Assembly (NCBI GenBank): GCA_002731275.1
Contig: PCBK01000024.1
Location: forward strand, 1 to 52,558
Length of the DNA stretch: 52,558 bases
Direction: 5' to 3'
From: Deltaproteobacteria bacterium
GTDB lineage: Bacteria; Myxococcota_C; UBA6777
Under the pieces are notes generated by a model that ran no database searches, was not told the DNA's origin, and saw nothing but the letters and a program-made list of their open reading frames with translations. Position 1 is the stretch's first letter, and every line of letters begins with the position of its first letter. Below, piece after piece: positions 260 through 52,523 of the stretch. A program made the position numbers and the translations under genes.

Positions 260-3200
260 TCAATCGATCGTCGGGAGGTTCGGGGTGGCAAGAGAGAGCT
301 GGAAGACACCATATTGACCGTCTGAGACAAGAACATTGTCGTTCATAAACGAAACGTGTCCATTGTATCCACGTAGACGCAGAAAATGAGTGGGTTCAGG
401 TGCGCTCATCTTCGCGAGATTGAATATCATCAAACCATCACCAATATCCGCCATGAGGTGGTTCCCCTTCATCCCTAAGAGATCCATCCTTGTGAAAGGC
501 AATGCAAAATCTTTCAGAGATACAAATCCATCTTCGCCAAACACTGCGAGGTGAAGTCTTGGATTCGCGTGATACCCCCACTTATCGTATTCGCCATGTA
601 GCGAAAGATACACCATCGACTCACCACGAAACACCAACTTCTCGGGAAGCTCCTTGAGCGTATGCCATTGGCGTGCAAATGCTTTGTCTCCAGTAAGCTC
701 AAGCCGAATCAAACGCACTTTTGGAGGACAGTAGCCATGTCTATCGGCCGGGCAATCAGGCTGCGCTTGGTTGTCCCAGGTGTACAAGTAAGTCTTCTTT
801 CCGCTTTGGTGAGTGTGGACAAAGTATCCTGGAACATTGACAGGCGTACCTATGACAGCGTCTCCGCTTCCAAAAGTAAGTGACGTGATATAGTGACGAT
901 GTTCCTGAACAATCGAAGTTTCTGTTTCTTGCCCTTTGGTAAGACGTGTCTCCAACCAAAAAGAAGTGTCACTTTGTTTGACAAGCCCTAAATAAGTCGT
1001 GTCCGATCCCTTAGACGCCACAAGCTCCTTGAGGACAGGCTTGCTCGGTGTCCGCAAATCAAGAGTGAGCACTTTGTAGTCAAACTTGTACCTATAGTTT
1101 ATGCTGTAACGATAAGAGCTCTGCAGATGGACCAAACCATGTGCGGTCGTTTGCCAGGATATAGATGTATTGCCATACGTATTCAATGAGCGAGCGTCCG
1201 AACAGGTAGGGCAAGACAACCCATACCTTGAGTAAAAACTTCCGTACCGATACTCGATCTTTGTGCTTGACACACGTTTGGGCTTGGATGGATCGCGCAT
1301 ATCATACACAAGAAACTCAGTCATATCGCGTTTATAGTATGGATAACGATACCGTTCAGAGCGATCCCAATCGAGGATGGCACGAGCAATCACCAGGTAT
1401 TGTTTCCACTTTACAACACCGAACACACGCCCCATTTGAAAAGAGGCGATCTCAGGCCAGCTCTCCATGCCCCCTTTTGCTTGCCGTTTGATACGAAAGA
1501 GATTGTTATCCTTCTTTTTACTGTAGCTCACATGTTCGACGACATACTTCCCAAAGGAGTATGTCCCGGCGGCATATGTTGTGAGTCCAAGAGAAGAGAG
1601 CAGCTTGGGCTGTTGTGGGTCTTCGAGATCAGTGACCGTCATGTGGGTATCGGAGATATTCAGGACATAACGACGTGTCTGTTCACTGTGTTTCATGTCG
1701 AAGATAAGTGTACGTTTGACTTCTCCATATGGGTGATGAATTGTCTTGAGATCGGTCAACACCTTTTGTGACTTCTCATCTTTACTCTCATCGTACTTGC
1801 TCAGATCCCACTGCATTAAACCAACGGACGTCTGCCAATGATACCACCAATAATCCGTGTGACGTATGTTCGCATAATACGTAACAGGGACAGAGACAAA
1901 GTTGAGTCCTCTATGAGAGTACATACCCAGCATCTTGTGTGCTTGATCGCGATTCCAGTTGACGTCGGAGCTGACCCAGTTCGACTGTACGTTGACACAG
2001 CGTCTTTGAATCAGGCGGATTTTGTCGAGTTTCCGCACATCAAACAGACTGACTGCGACCTTTGTCGCGCGCCACCCACTCGTGTCAAAACCAGTGCAGT
2101 GTCCGCTGTTATCAAGTCCAACTCCTAACAAGTACTGTCCACCTCCTACGAGGCGAAAGACATTGACATCACCACTCAATCCATCGATGTCACTGAGGAT
2201 TTTTAGGTCTTTGGGATCGGAGAAGTCGATCGCGTACAGTGGATCAACAGCCTGGATCGCCGTGATCGCATAGAGGACCTTGCGATTGTGATCGAAGAGA
2301 CTCCCACGCACGGTCTCGTTGGGCTTACCAAACTCCAGGGTGTCGAGCACCTGCGGTTTTTGTCCGTCGCTGATATCGATCGACAAGAGCGTGTTTTTGA
2401 CCACACGCGACCAACGATCACAACTCGTCCCCCGCTCATTCCTCGCGAAGATACCGTAGTAAATACCTCTCTTGGTTTTGGGATCGTAGACATATGTCTG
2501 CTTAAATTGATCACCAATACTACCACGAACATGAAAGCGCGTGTGGACGCGGATCTTACCAGTAGGGTCGCTGATGTCGATGAGATTGAGAACGGTCGTG
2601 TTGTAGAACTGACTCCTCCCACAGCCATTCTCATCACTTCCATAGTAAGACCAATTTTCCGCGACCATCAGAGCATTGGAGGTCGCGGTGATGTTGATAC
2701 CGCGAAACGTATAGCGATGCTTCGAGCTGTTATCAGGTAATCGATTTGTGTCGATCAATTCGAGACTCTGGATCTTCTTGACGTTACTGGGATCTGTGAC
2801 ATCAAATGAATAGACCGTCGCACGATCTTTCGTATCCTTTTGGGTAGGTCGACGCCACCCCCAATAGTAATCAGGAGCTTGGTAGGAGACGACATAGATG
2901 GTCTTACCAACTTTTCGAGAGACACCTTCACGTAGTTTACCGAGGATATCGAAGCGACGAAGGATCTTGGGATTGGAGATGTCCTTGATATCGACGATCA
3001 AGAGTTGTGAGACGTAACGCTTCTCAAACTCGAACTTGCCATTGTATTTGCGCAAATACAACGAGTCTCTGACAAGTACATAGGCTCTATCTTTCTCGAA
3101 AAACATCTCGATAGGATATCCGTATATCGGAAGTCGAGCGAGGTGTTTGGGTTTCTTTGGGTCGGCCAACGAGATCACCTGAAGTCCCCGGTAGGTGTTC

Positions 3201-31087: not shown

Positions 31088-34000
31088 TCAGCTACACGTG
31101 CCGGCGTTACAAGTTTGTCCAGATGGACAACATGTGGAACCACAAACTTGCGTTGTAGGACAACAGCTACCACCCAAACAGGTATCACTGCTGCCACAGC
31201 AAGAGGAGCCACAGACTTTCGCGACATCACAACAGCTACCACCAGAACACACCTGCCCACTGCTACAGCATGTCCCGTTACATGAGCGCGCGGCAGGACA
31301 ACACGAACCGCCGATACAAGAACCTGCACAGCAGGCGTTTCCTGTCGCATCACAACAAGAACAACAGTTCGAACCACACTTCGCGGCTCCACCGCTACAC
31401 TGCAAGGCGCAAGAACCGTTGACACAGACACGTCCACCTGTACAAGGTTGACCACAACCACCGCAGTGATTGGGGTTGACTTGTGTATCAACACACTGCC
31501 CACTACAGTTTGTACTGTTTGAGGAACACTGCAAGATACAAGTGCCACCGACACAGCTCTCTCCCGTTGAACATTGCGTCGTGCAAGAGCCGCAATGATT
31601 GGGGTCGACCTGTGTGTCGAAGCAGCTCGAACCACACTGTGTTAGGTTTGTGCCACAGTTTGCGACACAGGTTCCACTCGCGCACTTTTGTCCAGACGCA
31701 CAAACAGTCCCACAACCTCCACAGTGGTTGGGGTTGGCGTCTGTATCCACACAGACGGAGCCACATTTGGTGTTCCCTGTGGGACAGCTAATCTGACAGA
31801 CACCAGAGACACAGCGCTCACCAGCTTTACAGGCAGTCCCACATCCACCACAGTTCGCATTGTCAGAAGTTTGATCGACGCACTTGCTGCCACACTTGGT
31901 GAGACCTGTCTGGCAGGACAAGGAACACGAGCCAGCATTACAAACCTCGCCAGCTTGGCAGGTCGTACCACATCCACCACAGTGGTTGGGGTTGCTTTGT
32001 GTATTGACACATGAGTTGTTGCACTTTGTGCTTCCTGCAGGACAACTCACATCACACGCACCGTTGTTGCAAACCTCTCCGCTCTTACAGCTACTGTTAC
32101 AGCCATTACAATGGAAGCGATCGGTCTTTGTATTCACACAGGTCCCGCCACAATTGGTGAGCCCTGTTTGGCAACTGAGTGAGCAGGCGCCGTTGACACA
32201 AACTTGTCCGGATGGACAGGCGATCCCACAACCACCACAGTGGTCGCGATCGGTCTTCTGATTGACGCAAGTGCTGTTACATTTGGAGAGCCCGCTAGGA
32301 CAAGAGAGTCCACATTTTCCGTTGACACAAACCTGCCCAGAAGGACACACAATCCCACACGCATTGCAATTAAGTCGATCATTTTGCAAATTGCTGCACA
32401 CGCCACCGCAGTTGGTGAGACCAGCTTGACAAGAGACAGAGCATTTTTCGCTGCTGCAGATCTCACCAGTGGGACAGGCCTTGTTACACTTTCCGCAGTG
32501 TCGACGGTCTGTGTTAAGGTCGACACAAGTGCTTCCACACTCCGTCAAACCAGCTTGGCAAGAGAGCGCGCAGGAGCCATTACTGCAGACCTGACCTCCT
32601 AAACACTTGGCGTTACAACGATTACAATGATCTCGATCGCTTTTAAGATTGACACAGATGCCACCACAGTTTGTGAGACCTGCCTGACATGTCAGTTGAC
32701 ATGTACCACCAACACACGCCTGTCCAGAGGCACACTTGGTCCCACATCCCCCACAGTTGGAATTATCTGTCTTCAAATCGACACAGATGCTGCTACAATT
32801 TGTCAGACCAGATTGACAGGAGAGGCCACATGTACCGTTGTTACAGACCTCACCAGAGGCACATTTTTTGTTGCAAGCACCACAATGTAATGAATAGGTC
32901 TTCAAATCAACACAAGTCCCACCACAGTTCGTCAAGCCAGTTTGGCAATCCAGGCGACAAGCACCGTTGACACATTTTTGCCCAGAAGGACACTGTTGAC
33001 CGCACTTTCCACAGTTAAAAGCGTCCTCTTTTGTGTCCACACACTTTCCGTTACAGTTATCCAGGCCAGTTTGACAATCGAGCTTACAGCTTCCGTTGTT
33101 GCAGACACGTCCAGGAGGACACTTTGTGTTGCATGTCCCGCAATTGTCGCGGTCTGTTTTGGTGTTGACACACACGCCATTGCACTGTGTCAAGCTGTTT
33201 TGGCATGAAACATCACACTTACCGGCGCTACAGACCTCACCAGAGGGACATTTCTTTTGGCATTGACCGCAATGGTCGCGGTCTGTGTTGATGTTGACAC
33301 AAAGTCCACCACAATCGTTGAGACCCGTTTGGCAACTAAGCTGACACTTTCCGGCGATACATTGCTCACCAGAGAGGCAGCGGTTTCCACAAGTTCCGCA
33401 ATTGAGAACGTCTGTCTGCATGTTGACACAGACATTGGCACACTTGGTCAATCCAGCCTGACAGGAGACCCCACACGAACCAGAGCTACAGACCTGACCT
33501 TCTGCACACTTGCCATCACACGCGCCACAGTTTTCGCGGTCATTTTGTAAGTTGACACAGACTCCAGAACAGTTTGTGAGTCCTTTTTGACAGGAGAGGT
33601 CACATTTCCCGTTGTTACAGACCTGTCCAGAGGGACACTTATTGCCACAAGTTCCACAGTTGTTGCGGTCTTTGAGGACATTTGCGCATTCGTTATTGCA
33701 GTTGGTTTGTCCGCCGTATTGGTCCCGATCGCAATCGTTCCAGATCCCATCAGCGCACGTCTTACGCACGAGCGGACAGACCTCACCAGTTTTGTCACAG
33801 TAGGGGAAAATCGGGTGAGCAGCGGTCCGCAAGCTGTCATCTTGGGTGTCCGCTTTACCATCACAGTCGTTGTCTTTCCCGTCGCATACTTCGCGTGCAC
33901 AGAGCTTACATGAGCCCTGTGTGCTCTGCATCAAGTTGGTCACTTTTCCGCTGGGATCGGACATAAAGAAGTCGATGAAGAAAGAACACTCCCCTAAGCC

Positions 34001-34531
34001 AGAGTCAAAGCAGCTATAGCTCGGTGAATCCATCTTTTTACAGATCGATTTAAGGGTCGCGAGATTCTTGGGGTTGGTCAGATCGGTCGTGCCCCAATTT
34101 TCCAGGAAGTACAATCGGAAACGAATGTTTTTGACATCCGACTGCGTAGGATACCGAATGACCGCGGTCTCTGTCCGACCGTCCAGCGGAGCCAAGTGTT
34201 TCAGCTCACCTCGTGCGTTGATCTCCACGGGGGTTACATAGTCTTTCCCCTCTTCAACCTCACGACCATCCCACAACGTCACAATACAACCACGCTCAAC
34301 CCCCTTTTCACCGGGGCCAAAGAGCCCCTGATAGAGCTGCGCGCTCGCATAACTACCGCTCGGGTCATACTTCAAATATTTGACAGGGTTACAATCTCCG
34401 GCTTTCAACTCAAAGTGCTCACTTGGCTGTCTTGAACAACCTTCGGAGAGTACCAAAAATAAGATCACACCGAGCAATAAAAGCCAACGAAAACGTATTG
34501 AATAGGTAGAAAACATTCGACTCATGTTCAT
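31088..34531 (-). CDS. Giant Cys-rich lipoprotein, 18 tandem modules and CC-rich tail
   Basis: About 1147 residues from ATG 34531; ATGs at 34525 and 34516 are equally possible, the last aligning best with the paralogue. Signal peptide with lipobox-like SEGC. The following domain matches the 26797 paralogue over long identical stretches (for example NIRFRLYFLENWGTTDLTN), with a MopE-type CDGKDNDCDGKAD. Then 18 modules of 43 residues with the same eight-Cys spacing, and a distinct tail of about 100 residues rich in CC pairs (GSCCPAARSCNGTCCSSG type), absent from the paralogue. It is likely a long disulfide-bonded surface fibre with a different tip. No enzymatic domain is visible. Confidence 0.85.
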   Translation of the reverse strand: MNMSRMFSTYSIRFRWLLLLGVILFLVLSEGCSRQPSEHFELKAGDCNPVKYLKYDPSGSYASAQLYQGLFGPGEKGVERGCIVTLWDGREVEEGKDYVTPVEINARGELKHLAPLDGRTETAVIRYPTQSDVKNIRFRLYFLENWGTTDLTNPKNLATLKSICKKMDSPSYSCFDSGLGECSFFIDFFMSDPSGKVTNLMQSTQGSCKLCAREVCDGKDNDCDGKADTQDDSLRTAAHPIFPYCDKTGEVCPLVRKTCADGIWNDCDRDQYGGQTNCNNECANVLKDRNNCGTCGNKCPSGQVCNNGKCDLSCQKGLTNCSGVCVNLQNDRENCGACDGKCAEGQVCSSGSCGVSCQAGLTKCANVCVNMQTDVLNCGTCGNRCLSGEQCIAGKCQLSCQTGLNDCGGLCVNINTDRDHCGQCQKKCPSGEVCSAGKCDVSCQNSLTQCNGVCVNTKTDRDNCGTCNTKCPPGRVCNNGSCKLDCQTGLDNCNGKCVDTKEDAFNCGKCGQQCPSGQKCVNGACRLDCQTGLTNCGGTCVDLKTYSLHCGACNKKCASGEVCNNGTCGLSCQSGLTNCSSICVDLKTDNSNCGGCGTKCASGQACVGGTCQLTCQAGLTNCGGICVNLKSDRDHCNRCNAKCLGGQVCSNGSCALSCQAGLTECGSTCVDLNTDRRHCGKCNKACPTGEICSSEKCSVSCQAGLTNCGGVCSNLQNDRLNCNACGIVCPSGQVCVNGKCGLSCPSGLSKCNSTCVNQKTDRDHCGGCGIACPSGQVCVNGACSLSCQTGLTNCGGTCVNTKTDRFHCNGCNSSCKSGEVCNNGACDVSCPAGSTKCNNSCVNTQSNPNHCGGCGTTCQAGEVCNAGSCSLSCQTGLTKCGSKCVDQTSDNANCGGCGTACKAGERCVSGVCQISCPTGNTKCGSVCVDTDANPNHCGGCGTVCASGQKCASGTCVANCGTNLTQCGSSCFDTQVDPNHCGSCTTQCSTGESCVGGTCILQCSSNSTNCSGQCVDTQVNPNHCGGCGQPCTGGRVCVNGSCALQCSGGAAKCGSNCCSCCDATGNACCAGSCIGGSCCPAARSCNGTCCSSGQVCSGGSCCDVAKVCGSSCCGSSDTCLGGSCCPTTQVCGSTCCPSGQTCNAGTCS
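31403..33712 (-). repeat. Tandem 129-bp coding repeats (18 modules)
   Basis: Array encoding the 43-residue Cys modules of the 31088 gene. The modules are more diverged from one another than the last four in the paralogue, so this array looks older. Confidence 0.75.
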
Positions 34532-34558
34532 CCGGTTCCCAATGTTGAATGGACCTGT

Positions 34559-34573
34559 ATATTCTAAGAATAT
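34559..34573. promoter_or_regulatory. Palindrome upstream of the Cys-rich gene
   Basis: Perfect palindrome ATATTCT-A-AGAATAT, 28-43 bp before the possible starts of the 31088 gene. On the minus strand it contains TAGAAT, a -10-like hexamer, so it may be an operator overlapping a promoter. A second palindrome, ACAATCGATTGT, lies at 34592-34603. Confidence 0.3.
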
Positions 34574-34864
34574 CGAAACGTTACAACCAGCACAATCGAT
34601 TGTCAAGCGAGAGACATGCCTCCCACGTATGTACAATGAACTCTGGCCCCGTAGACATCACCAAAGACAAGTCCGGTTTACACAATAAGTGACCTGTACT
34701 TGTCTTGCTTTGTCTCACCGAACCACGTCACGACGACACTCGTCACACGATGACACTGCCTGGACACCATGAGCAGCCACAAGGAACAGGTTGCGTTTCC
34801 TGACAGAAAGGAATATGAGTACATAGATTCGATTTTTTGGATGCCACAGACAAAGGACTTTGAC

Positions 34865-35674: not shown

Positions 35675-37843
35675 TCAAGGACGCGTTTTGAGCTTGCGCC
35701 ATAACGTCGTGCGGCTGATACCGAGGCGCTGTGCGGCGAGCTGTTGGTTATTGTCCGTCAACATGAGCACCTTCTCGATGAGCTTCCTCTCAAGTGTTGC
35801 GAGCGGATTTTCCGTGTGTAACGCCTCTGTGACGAGATCGTCTTTTGGGGCAAAGAGTTCCGGAGGAAGATGCTCTGCTTCGATGACAGCCCCCTGACAG
35901 AGGACAAAAGCGTGCTCAAGCATGTTCTCCAATTGCCGAACGTTGCCGGGATAATCGAACGCAAGTAACAAACGCAACGCTTCTTCGGAGATACGCTGGA
36001 TCGTCTTGCGTGTCCGAGGGTTGAGCTTGCTGATAAAGGTCTTGAGCAGCAGAGGGATATCATCTTTACGCGCTCGCAACGGAGGGACACGAAGTTGAAC
36101 GACGTTCAATCGATAGTAAAGATCCTCCCGAAAACGCCCTTGGGCAACTTCGCGCTGAAGATCTCGGTGGGTCGCTGCGATCACACGCACATCAATACGA
36201 CGTGTGAGACTGGAGCCCACACGTTCGAATTCTCCCTCTTGGAGAACCCGTAGCAGCTTGACCTGTGTCGCCGGAGACAACTCGCCAATTTCATCGAGAA
36301 AGATCGTACCACCATCGGCGAGCTCGAAGCGCCCTCTCCTTTCGTTGACAGCCCCAGTGAAAGCACCTTTCTCATGACCAAACCACTCCGTTTCGAGCAG
36401 ACTCTCACTGAGGGCACCACAATTGACAGAGATCATCGGCTTATCATGTCGAGCACTTTGTGCGTGGATGGCACGTGCGAACAATTCTTTTCCAGTCCCA
36501 CTCTCTCCAGTGATCAGAACAGTCGTCGGAAGAGGCGCGACCTTCTTTACAAGGTCGTAGAGCGCTAGCATTGCCGCGCTTTTCCCAACGATCGTCCCCA
36601 ACGAATGCTTTTGAGAGAGTTGCTCATTCAGCGCTTTGACCTCTGAGAGGTTGCGCACAAAACCCATCAACGATTGTTGTCCTTGCTGCTCGATCAACGT
36701 CAACCGCAGCTCGATCGGCAGCGGAGAGTGGTCACGTCTCAACAGTGTCGTCTCGAAGATCCTCGAAGCCCCAACGCTCTCTAATTGTCCGACTTCCTCC
36801 AAAAAGGCCTGTTGTGCTTTAGGGGCGATGAGAGACAGTAACGTGCGCGCTTTGAGTGTAGCGACGTCACTCTGAAGCCACCCCGCAAGATTCGGATGGA
36901 AGGTGTCAAAGGCCACATCAGGAGACCGACACACAAACACCCCCTCGTGCAACATCTCAAACAACAACCTGTATCGCTCGTTACTCTGCGCAAGATCACT
37001 GACCCAATGACCCTTTTCGATGGAGATGGCAATCTCTCCTGCGATCTGCTTGAGCATACCAACATGTCTCTCTTTGAACGCGCTCTTCTTTGTGCTGCTA
37101 AAGAAGAGCACCCCTATCGGACTTCCTTGTACAGACAAAGGCAAGGTCAAGTTGGAACGCATCCCTTCATCGATGAGCAGACGGGTCCAAAGTGACGGAC
37201 GACGAGCCTGTATCGACTTCAGATCGTCTAGAATACGCACCGCTCCCTTTTCCAACAGGCGCTTCAAACTTGACCCTTGTATCGACGCAGAGAAACCATC
37301 CCCCAACAAAATGTGCCTCGTAGAATGTGTTTGCACCTGTATTAACTTGTCCGTCTCTCCCTCAAGCAACGCAATCCCTATCCGATCGTGGGGTACAAGT
37401 GTTCGCAAGCCTTCCGCGAGGACCTCTGTCACCTGCTTGAGCGTCTTTGCCACCTGTAGTGCCTCAAGCAAGGCATCAAGAGGAGCCTTCTCTCCATCTT
37501 CCATGTCCTCCTCTCTCGAAGGACTGACGTCTTCCACCCGGACCTCGATCATCCCCTCCCTGACACGGACAGGATATGTTTTGAGTGGCGGCGTCATCAC
37601 AGGACAACCTGTCTTCAGATTGTATTGCCAATCATGCCAGGGACACTTCACAACCTCCCCCACAACCTCTCCTTGTGACAAAGGGCCCCCTTGGTGCGGA
37701 CAGCTGTTGTCCGTCACTCGAAACCCACCCTCCACACGGAACACCGCCAACTGCAGGTCCTCCAATGTGAACATCTTGCTTTGACCTTGCGCCAAAGAGG
37801 ACTCCCTCGCCAATGACACCCAACGCTCCATTTGTTGCTCCAT
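35675..37843 (-). CDS. Rieske-domain sigma-54-dependent activator (Rieske-GAF-PAS-AAA+-Fis)
   Basis: 722 residues. Residues 5-105 form a Rieske [2Fe-2S] domain with all four ligands: Cys48 and His50 in SCPHQGG, Cys67 and His70 in KCPWHDW. A GAF domain (about 125-280) and a PAS-like domain (about 288-400) follow. The sigma-54 interaction AAA+ domain (about 415-645) has Walker A GESGTGKE (446-453), the GAFTGA loop (493-498) and Walker B FLDEIG. A Fis-type HTH (about 685-720, [21 protein letters not shown]) ends the protein. It should thus activate sigma-54 promoters in response to redox or a bound small molecule. ATG 37831, six bases after GGAG, is an alternative start. Two palindromes and a sigma-54 promoter lie in its divergent upstream region. 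Confidence 0.93.
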
Positions 37844-37850
37844 GACGCTG

Positions 37851-37872
37851 CATGTTTCAAATATGAAACATG
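37851..37872. promoter_or_regulatory. Palindromic regulator site 1 (candidate UAS/autoregulatory site)
   Basis: Perfect inverted repeat: 9-bp arms CATGTTTCA and TGAAACATG around AATA. It lies 8-20 bp upstream of the regulator's possible starts, so occupancy should affect the regulator's own expression. The same core recurs at 37950-37969, centre to centre 98 bp. Arms of TGT...ACA type with a short spacer are usual for enhancer sites of sigma-54 activators. Confidence 0.8.
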
Positions 37873-37949
37873 ATTCAAAATTGCAATAAACAAACTTTAT
37901 CTCTGCAACAGTAAGTTATTTTCATACAGAATTCTACTTTAGCAAACAC

Positions 37950-37969
37950 ATGTTTCAATTATGAAACAT
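37950..37969. promoter_or_regulatory. Palindromic regulator site 2 (candidate UAS)
   Basis: Perfect inverted repeat: 8-bp arms ATGTTTCA and TGAAACAT around ATTA, the same core as site 1. Its centre is about 100 bp upstream of the -24 element of the candidate sigma-54 promoter, a normal distance for an enhancer acting through DNA looping. Confidence 0.82.
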
Positions 37970-38056
37970 TCAGCGCAAACACACCCCGACCTGCCCCAGC
38001 AACAAAAACACACGACATTTTGAACACTTAGCACCCCCAATAATACATTCGCAAAG

Positions 38057-38073
38057 CTGGAACATACTTTGCT
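38057..38073 (+). promoter_or_regulatory. Sigma-54 (-24/-12) promoter of the SDR-queA-like operon
   Basis: CTGGAACATACTTTGCT matches the sigma-54 consensus YTGGCACGNNNNTTGCW at 11 of 13 defined positions, with the invariant GG (38059-38060) and GC (38071-38072) exactly 10 bases apart. Transcription should begin near 38084, about 50 bases before the SDR start. It points away from the sigma-54 activator gene and toward the SDR gene. Confidence 0.8.
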
Positions 38074-38135
38074 GAAGAGAGGGCACACAAGGCCAACAGG
38101 GCCAACACACAATGACAACACAAAGAGGTATAGAG

Positions 38136-38861
38136 ATGAACGTAACACAAGAAAAACATTGGAAAGATTCGAGATGGTTGATCACTGGAGGTTCATCGGG
38201 CTTGGGATTGGCATTGGCGCGAGAGCTCGACAGATTGGGCGCAAGGGTTGTGGTGGTCGCACGCAACAAGGGTCGCTTACAGGAGGCGATTCAGGGCAGC
38301 AACATTCACCCTATCACAGCGGACGTCTCGGCAAAGGACGATGTATACAGAGTGATCGGTGAGGCGAGTGCATTTTTGGGCGGCATTGACGTGCTGGTGA
38401 ACAACGCGAGCGCTTTGGGTCCCACCCCCTTACGATTGCTTTCGGATACGGAGTGCGAAGATCTTTCTTTGGTTTTTGAGACCAACCTGATGGGTCCCTT
38501 CCGTTGGACAAAAGCAGCACTCTCGTCGATGTTACTGAGGCAAAAAGGGCTGATCATCAACATCTCAAGTGATGCCGCCCAGAGCGCATACCCAACGTGG
38601 GGCCCCTATAGCGCATCCAAGGCCGCGCTCGACCATTTGACCCGAGTCTGGCAACAAGAACTCAACGCTGAAGGGATCCAATTTGTCGCAGTGGATCCTG
38701 GAGATATGGACACGCCCATGCACCTCGCGGCCATCCCTGACGCCGATCGTACAGCGCTTTATAAGCCCGATGAGGTCGCGACTGACTTGTTGCACTTTCT
38801 GACCACTCTCCCCAAAGAACAACCAGTGCGATATAGCGCAAGTGAGTGGAGGACATCATGA
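38136..38861 (+). CDS. Short-chain dehydrogenase/reductase (SDR)
   Basis: A 241-residue classical SDR: NAD(P)-binding TGGSSGLG near the N-terminus, NNAS, the catalytic Ser in INISSDAA, and YSASK (Tyr/Lys). VDPGDMDTPMH follows the usual P-G motif. ATG 38136 has GAGG seven bases upstream; an ATG at 38112 lacks one. The substrate is unknown. It is first in the operon driven by the sigma-54 promoter, and its TGA overlaps the ATG of the queA-like gene (ATGA), so translation of the two is coupled. It is therefore probably functionally tied to that gene and to the Rieske regulator. Confidence 0.9.
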   Translation: MNVTQEKHWKDSRWLITGGSSGLGLALARELDRLGARVVVVARNKGRLQEAIQGSNIHPITADVSAKDDVYRVIGEASAFLGGIDVLVNNASALGPTPLRLLSDTECEDLSLVFETNLMGPFRWTKAALSSMLLRQKGLIINISSDAAQSAYPTWGPYSASKAALDHLTRVWQQELNAEGIQFVAVDPGDMDTPMHLAAIPDADRTALYKPDEVATDLLHFLTTLPKEQPVRYSASEWRTS

Positions 38862-39910
38862 GTCATCAATTCACCCCATTAACACGAAGCAAGCGACGAA
38901 AAGATGCCCGTTTGCTGGTACTGGAAGGCAGAACACAGCACATTCACCACCGCCATATCGAACATGTCGGTGATTTTCTCAATAAAGGTGATCTACTTGT
39001 TGTAAACGACGCCGCGACGCTTCCTTCGAGCTTCCTAGGGACACACTTACCAAGTGGTAGGCAGATCGAACTTCGTCTCGCATCGAACCTTGGGACGACA
39101 CCTGATGACGTCTCGGAGTGGCTGGCTGTTGTCTTTGGCGAAGGTGATTGGCACATGAAGACAGAAGATCGCCCTGCTCCCCCCCACTGTAGAGCAGGGG
39201 AAAAATTGCACTTTGGAGACGGATTGATTGGTACATTAATGATGGTATCGACACAATCCCCCCGCCTTGTCTCAGTGCGTTTTCGCGCAAAGGACGGCGA
39301 GCTGTGGCGCGCGCTGTACAAGCACGGTAAGCCGATCCAGTACTCGTACCACGAAGAGCCGTTGGAGGTGTGGGATCAGCAGACGATCTTCTCAGGCCCT
39401 CCGATCGCTGTCGAGCCACCTTCTTCGGGCTTCCATTTACGCTGGGAGTGGTTACTCTCCCTGCGCCAAAAGGGCGTACAAATCGCGCCAATCAGCCATG
39501 CGACAGGGCTCTCCACCACAGGAGATGAAGACCTCGACAAACGACTCCCTTTTCCCGAACGTTCCTATATACCGAAATCGACAGCGGTAACCATCAAGCG
39601 AACAAAAGAGACAGGTCGCCATGTTTTTGCCCTTGGTACAGGCGTCACTCGCGCTCTTGAGAGCGCAGTGTTACCAGACCTCTCAGGCGTAACCTCTGGT
39701 GCCTTCGTCAGTCGCGTCAAGTTACACCCAGACTTTCCACGCTTCATCGTCGATGGGTTGTTTACGGGATTACACGACGCAGGCTCCAGTCATATCGAAC
39801 TTCTCAACAGCTTCGTCTCCACTTCGTTGCTCGAACAAGGCTACCAACAAGCCCAGCAGTTAGGGTACTATGGCCACGAATATGGTGACACGTGCCTGAT
39901 CACCGCGTGA
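38858..39910 (+). CDS. Divergent QueA-like protein (S-adenosylmethionine:tRNA ribosyltransferase-isomerase family)
   Basis: 350 residues from ATG 38858 (GGAGG five bases upstream). Overall layout is that of QueA, the epoxyqueuosine-precursor synthase: LLVVNDAATLPSSFLG, ELRLA, FALGTGVTRALESAVL and the C-terminal YGHEYGDTCLI. Motifs that are near-invariant in true QueA are altered: AAPTAGLHF reads AVEPPSSGFHL, HVGxGTFxPV reads SHATGLSTTGD, and DALLTNFHLP reads DGLFTGLHDAG. It is therefore a paralogous subfamily, perhaps with another substrate, rather than the queuosine enzyme itself. No tgt or other queuosine gene is in the window. Confidence 0.8.
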   Translation: MSHQFTPLTRSKRRKDARLLVLEGRTQHIHHRHIEHVGDFLNKGDLLVVNDAATLPSSFLGTHLPSGRQIELRLASNLGTTPDDVSEWLAVVFGEGDWHMKTEDRPAPPHCRAGEKLHFGDGLIGTLMMVSTQSPRLVSVRFRAKDGELWRALYKHGKPIQYSYHEEPLEVWDQQTIFSGPPIAVEPPSSGFHLRWEWLLSLRQKGVQIAPISHATGLSTTGDEDLDKRLPFPERSYIPKSTAVTIKRTKETGRHVFALGTGVTRALESAVLPDLSGVTSGAFVSRVKLHPDFPRFIVDGLFTGLHDAGSSHIELLNSFVSTSLLEQGYQQAQQLGYYGHEYGDTCLITA

Positions 39911-50894: not shown

Positions 50895-52523
50895 TCAGGA
50901 GGGTTCTTCAACAGGCGCTTCGTCCTTCAAGCTCGCATGTTCTTTTAACAGGATGACACGCGCTCCGAGGTGATCGGTGCGTTCGGAGGCATTGAACCGG
51001 AAGGCACATCGCACGCCACGGCCGTGGTAACGAAAGCATCCTCCACGTATGGAGTACACACCTGAATCATCTGAAAACACAGGGTCCTTGGCGTCCTCTC
51101 CGAGCTCTTCGAGCCAGTTGATGCTCCAGTTGTCCGCGCACCACTCCCAAACATTACCGCTACAATCGAGCAGACCGTAAGGACTCGCCCCACCGAGGAA
51201 GGAAGCAACAGGCGTGGTGTCGTGGAGCCCCGAGCCGAGGAAGTTACACAGGCCGTTATGTGGTTTTTGATTGCCCCAAGGCCAGATCTGTCCCTCCGTT
51301 CCCCGCGCGGCTTTCTCCCACTGTGCCTCTGTCGGCAAGGCCAACTCGTAAAATGAGCAGAACGCCTGTACATCTTCGTACGAGATGTACACAACAGGGT
51401 GCTCAAGACGATCCAGCCGGGGACGTCCTCCCCTCCAGTGTTGAAGGTAATCGGGGCTCTCACAGTGATAGCCGCTCTCTTCGATAAATTTGAGCCAGAC
51501 TCTATTGGTCAACGGTGTCCGCGCAATCCAGTACGTCTCCAACTCCACTTCTCTTTGGGGTTGCTCGTTGTGGTAGGCCAACGAGTCCACTTTGCGAGAG
51601 CCCATCAAAAAAGTGCCCTCAGGCACTTTTGTCATGCGAAAGAGTGGCGTGCCATCTTTTGCGTGGAAGAACTTCTCTTCGAGGTGAGAAGCGACAGGCG
51701 GCAGATCGAGCGCGGAGCGCTGCAAGTCACGCAGTGTTGGACCGACAGGTTCGGCATCAATACGCCCTTGCAAGGATTCATCGATCTCAAGCTCCAACTC
51801 TTGGGCGAGAGGTGTCTCCGGCTTATTCATCAGAGGAAGATCGAGTCCATCAACAGAAGGACTTAAGAGTGCGTCTGACGAGGGCTCTTGCTTTTTTTTG
51901 GGTTTGTTTTGTTTGGGCTTCACTTGATCCAATGAGATCATCTCATCGCCGAGGTCGACCATTTGGGAAGAGAGCACAGGATCGGAGAGTGTTTGGATCT
52001 GGCCAGAGATGCGTTTGATCGGATTCTTATCGAGCGAGAGTGTCGGGTGAGGAGAATACGAAGATGCCCGAAAAGATCGAAATACAGGAAGATTTGGAGA
52101 CGCGAGTCGCTCCGGAAGTTCACCACTTTGACTCTCTTGCTCGGGTTCGGGTGCAGAGTGAACGGTCTTGACTTCACCGGTGAATGTGGGCTGCCCTGGA
52201 ACCATCGTCGGTGGTCCTTCGACAGCCGGTAGATCGGTCGCAGAGCGAAACACCTCAGCCAGCTCATCGCCAGCTTCGTACGCGTCGACCTTAGGCACCC
52301 TTGGTATCTCGGGCGAGGTTTCCTTTTCACCGAATGGATGGGCGTGTGAGAGACTGTCAATATCTCTCGTGGAGAGTTGGAACTCCGGAAGTTCGCGAGT
52401 CTGGTACTTTGGATCGAGCGAGTCGATCAAGGGCAACAGCGCAAATTCACTCTCCATGGCCCAAAGTTTACTGAGCTCTAAACGTCTCGACGCGTCTAGT
52501 AGCACCAGACTAACAACATGCAT
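50895..52523 (-). CDS. FGE-sulfatase-like protein, kinase-less paralogue
   Basis: 542 residues from ATG 52523, which directly follows an in-frame TGA; ATG 52457 is an alternative start. The N-terminal 290 residues are disordered and Pro/Ser/Glu-rich, with DEMISLDQVKPKQNKPKKKQ resembling the linker of the neighbour (YEEMISLDSLSLTPSKKK). The C-terminal 240 residues are an FGE-like domain (MGSRKVDSLAYHNEQPQREVE ... RGGCFRYHGRGVRCAFRFNAS) close to that of the kinase gene, including identical DNA. No kinase or transmembrane segment. It looks like a duplication of the linker-FGE half of the 47919 gene. It lies 150 bp upstream of it on the same strand. Confidence 0.88.
   Translation of the reverse strand: MHVVSLVLLDASRRLELSKLWAMESEFALLPLIDSLDPKYQTRELPEFQLSTRDIDSLSHAHPFGEKETSPEIPRVPKVDAYEAGDELAEVFRSATDLPAVEGPPTMVPGQPTFTGEVKTVHSAPEPEQESQSGELPERLASPNLPVFRSFRASSYSPHPTLSLDKNPIKRISGQIQTLSDPVLSSQMVDLGDEMISLDQVKPKQNKPKKKQEPSSDALLSPSVDGLDLPLMNKPETPLAQELELEIDESLQGRIDAEPVGPTLRDLQRSALDLPPVASHLEEKFFHAKDGTPLFRMTKVPEGTFLMGSRKVDSLAYHNEQPQREVELETYWIARTPLTNRVWLKFIEESGYHCESPDYLQHWRGGRPRLDRLEHPVVYISYEDVQAFCSFYELALPTEAQWEKAARGTEGQIWPWGNQKPHNGLCNFLGSGLHDTTPVASFLGGASPYGLLDCSGNVWEWCADNWSINWLEELGEDAKDPVFSDDSGVYSIRGGCFRYHGRGVRCAFRFNASERTDHLGARVILLKEHASLKDEAPVEEPS
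51253..51340 (-). repeat. 88-bp identical tract shared by the two FGE-like genes (second copy 48265-48352)
   Basis: 88 consecutive identical bases, third codon positions included, within the FGE-like domains of the two neighbouring genes. High but lower identity continues beyond, starting with a single mismatch and then 33 more identical bases. This suggests gene conversion or recent duplication. Confidence 0.85.

Follow-up and report, generated by a model that had tools for sequence, protein, structure and literature searches.

The gap between a two-gene operon, encoding a short-chain dehydrogenase/reductase (SDR) and a QueA-like protein, and the divergent gene for a sigma-54-dependent activator carries two near-identical interrupted palindromes, which we read with good confidence as tandem upstream activating sequences (UAS) through which the activator, a Rieske-GAF-AAA+-Fis protein, drives the SDR/QueA-like operon. 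The whole stretch of DNA that was analysed, here called the window, is 52,558 nucleotides of a deltaproteobacterial genome (contig PCBK01000024.1). A first-pass annotation of this DNA had described the palindromes as an enhancer pair, and both are exact and lie where it had placed them:

37851-37872, no strand assigned: site 1, an interrupted palindrome of exact sequence, CATGTTTCA-AATA-TGAAACATG, with 9-bp arms; predicted UAS
37950-37969, no strand assigned: site 2, an interrupted palindrome of exact sequence, ATGTTTCA-ATTA-TGAAACAT, with 8-bp arms; predicted UAS

Aligned directly (37851-37872 against 37949-37970), the two copies, CATGTTTCAAATATGAAACATG and CATGTTTCAATTATGAAACATT, share the same letter at 20 of 22 positions when the spacer is counted, and the 4-nt centre of each dyad is not itself symmetric. 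A lone dyad with 7-bp arms is not rare in this 292-bp AT-rich gap, as it arose in 15.5% of order-1 simulations. A second dyad with the same arms and spacer arose in none of 20,000 simulated regions, and the analytic expectation for such a pair is ~1e-6, so that the pair is indeed far beyond chance, as had been claimed. A degenerate third copy at 37871-37888, carrying three mismatches, was dismissed as not significant. The window contains other strong perfect dyads, TTGTATTTGCGCAAATACAA at 3042-3061 and TGTACATCTTCGTACGAGATGTACA at 51367-51391.

The gene that diverges from the operon encodes a protein with the architecture of an enhancer-binding protein:

35675..37843, minus strand: sigma-54-dependent activator, 722 aa, consisting of Rieske, GAF, a segment without Pfam match, AAA+ and HTH_8
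37580..37822, minus strand: Rieske [2Fe-2S] domain, Pfam E 1.5e-17, with the ligand motifs CPH ... CPWH intact
35687..35803, minus strand: Fis-type HTH, the DNA-binding domain of the activator, HTH_8 E 5.8e-13

Pfam matches place the Rieske domain at residues 8-88, GAF_2 at 134-276, Sigma54_activat at 418-584 (E 1.3e-72) and HTH_8 at 681-719, with a lid region between the AAA+ domain and the Fis-type HTH; the segment up to ~405 that lacks a Pfam match may be PAS-like. The GAFTGA and Walker A motifs are visible in the translation, and the C-terminus is the Fis-type HTH by which a sigma-54 enhancer-binding protein is recognised. In alignment with the naphthalene dioxygenase ferredoxin 2qpz, and also with 5bok, the C-x-H and C-x-x-H positions of the Rieske domain are kept. 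The genome also encodes RpoN (Sigma54_DBD E 1.9e-63). Translation of the activator probably starts at ATG 37831, which has GGAG 6 nt upstream. The earlier placement of site 1 just before the regulator start holds for ATG 37843, 8 bp away; measured from the better-supported ATG 37831, site 1 lies ~20-41 bp upstream.

On the other side of the gap lie the two genes of the presumed target:

38136..38861, plus strand: SDR, adh_short E 2.8e-48, starting at ATG 38136 with AGAGG upstream
38858..39910, plus strand: QueA-like SAM-dependent ribosyltransferase-isomerase paralogue, Queuosine_synth E 2.2e-49

ATG 38112 is an alternative start for the SDR, and the QueA-like start overlaps the SDR stop as ATGA. 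The QueA-like protein scores 137.9 bits, far short of the 324 that NCBIfam requires of a QueA equivalog, and carries the C-terminal motif TGLHDAGSSH in place of TNFHxPxST. A second QueA-family gene, at C3:114100, is present in the genome and its product is 28% identical to the QueA-like protein. None of the four further genomes of the phylum has the QueA-like gene.

Two promoter-like elements were found in the gap:

38058..38073, plus strand: predicted sigma-54 promoter TGGAACATACTTTGCT, the -24/-12 box of the SDR/QueA-like operon, TGGAAC-N5-TTGCT, with one mismatch to TGGCAC-N5-TTGCT
37958-37931, minus strand: candidate promoter of sigma-70 type for the activator gene, TTGAAA-16-TAGAAT, 10/12 in a consensus scan

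The -24/-12 box sits between the dyads and the SDR start and is the only match to TGGCAC-N5-TTGCT with at most one mismatch on either strand of the whole window; CTGGNAC-N5-TTGCT matches 11 times genome-wide. The dyad centres are ~99 bp (site 2) and ~197 bp (site 1) from the GG of the -24 element, so both fall within the 80-250 bp upstream of the promoter that is taken to define a UAS. The annotated distance of about 100 bp between site 2 and the -24 box is thus accurate when taken from the centre; edge to edge it is 88 bp. Together, the divergent sigma-54 activator, RpoN, the one-mismatch -24/-12 box and the UAS-type dyads support the enhancer-pair reading at the level of sequence. The sigma-70-like candidate is weak, with 0.5 such matches expected by chance. 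Its -35 falls inside site 2, and the regulator mRNA transcribed from it would carry site 1 in its leader.

These positions bear on whether the dyads act as RNA hairpins, in a leader structure or attenuator, and not as DNA sites. Site 1, in the presumed leader of the regulator, could pair into a 9-bp stem close to the ribosome-binding site. Site 2, however, is upstream of both presumed transcription starts and would not be transcribed, and the two copies have largely the same spacer, which RNA pairing does not require. Most shuffled versions of the leader fold as well as the leader itself (z -1.1), and no terminator was found. An RNA role for the dyads was rejected on these grounds, and we regard it as highly improbable.

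With the dyads as tandem UAS, HTH dimers of the activator would bind both sites and assemble an active AAA+ ring, which would reach the sigma-54 RNA polymerase at the 38058-38073 box via DNA looping. The SDR/QueA-like operon would then be switched on, with a transcript start predicted near 38083. Binding would probably also limit expression of the activator itself, because its likely -35 is covered by site 2 and its leader contains site 1. Autoregulation, which had been suggested from the position of site 1, is plausible from the arrangement of the gap, and site 2 may be as important for it as site 1, since the -35 of the sigma-70-like promoter lies inside site 2.

The activator could also occupy both sites with site 1 serving autoregulation only and site 2 acting as the sole enhancer, without a cooperative pair. 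This arrangement is a variant of the tandem-UAS explanation and the two are not mutually exclusive. It is favoured by the location of site 1, which is near the regulator start and some 200 bp away from the promoter, and by the centre-to-centre distance of 98 bp, which at ~9.3 turns is not exactly in helical phase. This spacing, and a third motif copy upstream of an unrelated gene, are points against the tandem-UAS reading. Conversely, activators of this kind often have several UAS, 100-250 bp upstream (PMC6615313), and the likely -35 of the regulator overlaps site 2 and not site 1. We consider a single enhancer at site 2 rather unlikely.

Exact copies of TGTTTCA-N4-TGAAACA number three in the 10.75-Mb genome (an assembly with an estimated contamination of 5.5%), two of them at the window locus, which is the genome's only close pair. 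In a scan of five genomes from the phylum, the motif was matched exactly just twice outside the window locus. Near matches with at most two mismatches number 45 genome-wide compared with 74 in the reversed control; since they are not enriched, a single target is likeliest for the activator motif. The third exact copy in the genome, at L095:6073-6090 (G000:C51:13072-13089), lies ~30 bp upstream of a gene for a 502-aa, weakly HTH_3-like protein. Another protein could recognise the motif there, or the copy could be due to chance.

This third copy is an argument for assigning the dyads to another DNA-binding protein altogether, such as an XRE-type repressor encoded elsewhere, with the sigma-54 activator binding at other positions or nowhere. 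Symmetric dyads fit many HTH families, and site 2 overlaps the likely -35 of the regulator. Against this, the weakly HTH_3-like gene is missing from the four other family genomes, and nowhere else in the genome do two copies lie close together; here they adjoin the gene for a Fis-HTH activator and have a suitably spaced sigma-54 promoter. An adjacent divergent regulator is also usual in homologous operons, and the gap holds no other dyad pair that could serve the activator. We therefore judge recognition by another protein improbable and retain the activator as the likely ligand of both sites.

Relatives of the activator were sought with its N-terminal 405 aa in ~670 genomes (386 spread, plus 195 and 95 of two phyla), and no orthologue was found; as a consequence, the window motif is without a phylogenetic footprint in the form of an orthologous activator with its own sites. 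The searches returned proteins with either a Rieske or a GAF domain, never with both. None of the long open frames that hold most of nineteen Rieske-match regions contains an AAA+ domain, and a peptide-pattern scan of genome contigs, which detects close relatives only, also gave no orthologue.

The operon itself is widespread. By tblastn against plasmids, the QueA-like protein was detected in rhizobia at ~40% identity, next to an SDR gene and with soxR transcribed divergently, and a profile built from the rhizobial matches yielded 80 further loci in many phyla, for 86 loci in total. The SDR gene adjoins the QueA-like gene in all 86. A divergent SoxR with a SoxR box is present at 25 of the 86 loci (L098-L102, L132, L133, L140, L151 and others, from rhizobia, Acidimicrobiia, Gemmatimonadota and others). 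At 40 loci (within L104-L181, e.g. L126:2704-3303, from Myxococcota, Burkholderiales and Acidobacteriota) the divergent regulator is an XRE HTH_3-cupin protein, the family having been identified on seven members, and many of these loci have a dyad upstream of the SDR gene as the likely operator. The remaining loci were assigned to neither class, among them two from Acidobacteria with a divergent ArsR-like/HTH_20 regulator (L108:633-1304 and L125:797-1468). On plasmid p5 of Rhizobium bangladeshense (L097:5118-5321), the SDR/QueA-like pair has no adjacent soxR and is flanked by genes for a dioxygenase alpha subunit and for a Rieske protein. We found no paper in the literature tying SoxR to the SDR/QueA-like gene pair.

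Across these loci the operator follows the regulator. The SoxR loci carry TTCAAGTTNACTTGAA, exactly in 21 of 25 and within two mismatches in all 25. At the XRE-cupin loci, TTGGCA-N3-TGCCAA was found within two mismatches at 12 of 40 and TGCCAAT-N2-ATTGGCA, at the same tolerance, at 10 of 40. Neither group carries the operator of the other. The window motif has at least four mismatches in every upstream region scored, which comprised the loci with sufficient upstream sequence. Conversely, the gap at the window locus contains neither a SoxR box (best match, 6 mismatches) nor a TTGGCA/TGCCAA dyad (at least 5 mismatches). The window genome also has no clear orthologue of SoxR (best match 30% over 105 aa) or of the XRE-cupin regulator (best match 40% over partial length). 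As the motif is absent at the other loci scored and clear orthologues of both regulators are absent from the genome, the window operon appears to have exchanged its operator along with its regulator. A quick tree places the window QueA-like protein in a set of 31 rows that includes 24 XRE-type and no SoxR-type loci; at least six changes of regulator label are needed, and the exact neighbour of the window protein is uncertain. On this reading, the Rieske sigma-54 activator, with operators of its own, would have replaced a regulator that was probably of the XRE-cupin type.

The proposed arrangement is most similar to the TGT-N10-12-ACA class of UAS, known from NifA, FhlA and 15 clostridial activator groups. 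In Clostridiales, the UAS of these 15 groups consist of inverted TGT/ACA repeats that enclose 10-12 bp; there are often several of them, mostly 100-250 bp upstream, and 65% of the activators control one operon (PMC6615313). The window sites likewise have the form TGT-N12-ACA, are repeated 100-200 bp upstream of a -24/-12 box, and are accompanied by an activator gene that adjoins its single presumed target. The window core differs in being longer and exactly symmetric, TGTTTCA-N4-TGAAACA, and an orthologous motif was not found elsewhere.

Among the other controls of this operon, the SoxR system of Rhizobium, Mesorhizobium, Acidimicrobiia and others has in common with the window a divergent local regulator of [2Fe-2S] type whose dyad operators lie in the gap between the genes. 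SoxR, however, belongs to the MerR family and works from a single box inside a promoter of sigma-70 type, whereas the window combines a Rieske AAA+ activator with a sigma-54 promoter and with two dyads that are distant and unrelated in sequence. The XRE (HTH_3)-cupin system with its TTGGCA/TGCCAA dyads, found on the side of the tree where the window QueA-like protein falls, also combines a divergent local regulator with dyads in the gap, but regulator fold and operator sequence are unrelated to those of the window. The Rieske domain resembles the Rieske ferredoxins of ring-hydroxylating dioxygenases (2qpz, 1vck), with both ligand motifs present; here it is fused to a sigma-54 activator, in a regulatory and not an electron-transfer setting.

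The identity of this domain and the analogy with SoxR suggest redox sensing by the activator. The Rieske domain would be the likely signal input, responding to redox state or to a redox-active compound that reacts with the cluster. Such an input is reasonable because a [2Fe-2S] sensor, SoxR, adjoins the same operon elsewhere; SoxR responds to redox-active metabolites (PMC3534580). The Rieske activator module, operators included, would then stand in for the SoxR or XRE-cupin control used at other loci. We offer only tentatively, as somewhat short of probable, the full proposal that a Rieske-gated AAA+ activator reading redox state or redox-active compounds replaced SoxR or XRE-cupin control and brought its own enhancer pair to an operon that has been repeatedly re-wired.

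Taken alone, the twin sites are nothing unusual as enhancers. The comparison turns them into a test case for the exchange of regulators, in which one two-gene operon is found under SoxR, XRE-cupin, an ArsR-like regulator in some Acidobacteria or, here, a Rieske sigma-54 activator. Should the Rieske domain be the sensor, the protein would be a [2Fe-2S]-gated enhancer-binding protein, a kind without report in the literature searched, where no paper joined a Rieske domain with a sigma-54 activator (most subscription journals lay outside this search), and the little-studied SDR/QueA-like pair would be linked to redox stress. Elsewhere on the minus strand of the window, positions 31088-34636 encode a 1182-aa protein with many Cys-rich repeats (CxxGLTxC...CGxC...) and a lipoprotein-like start.
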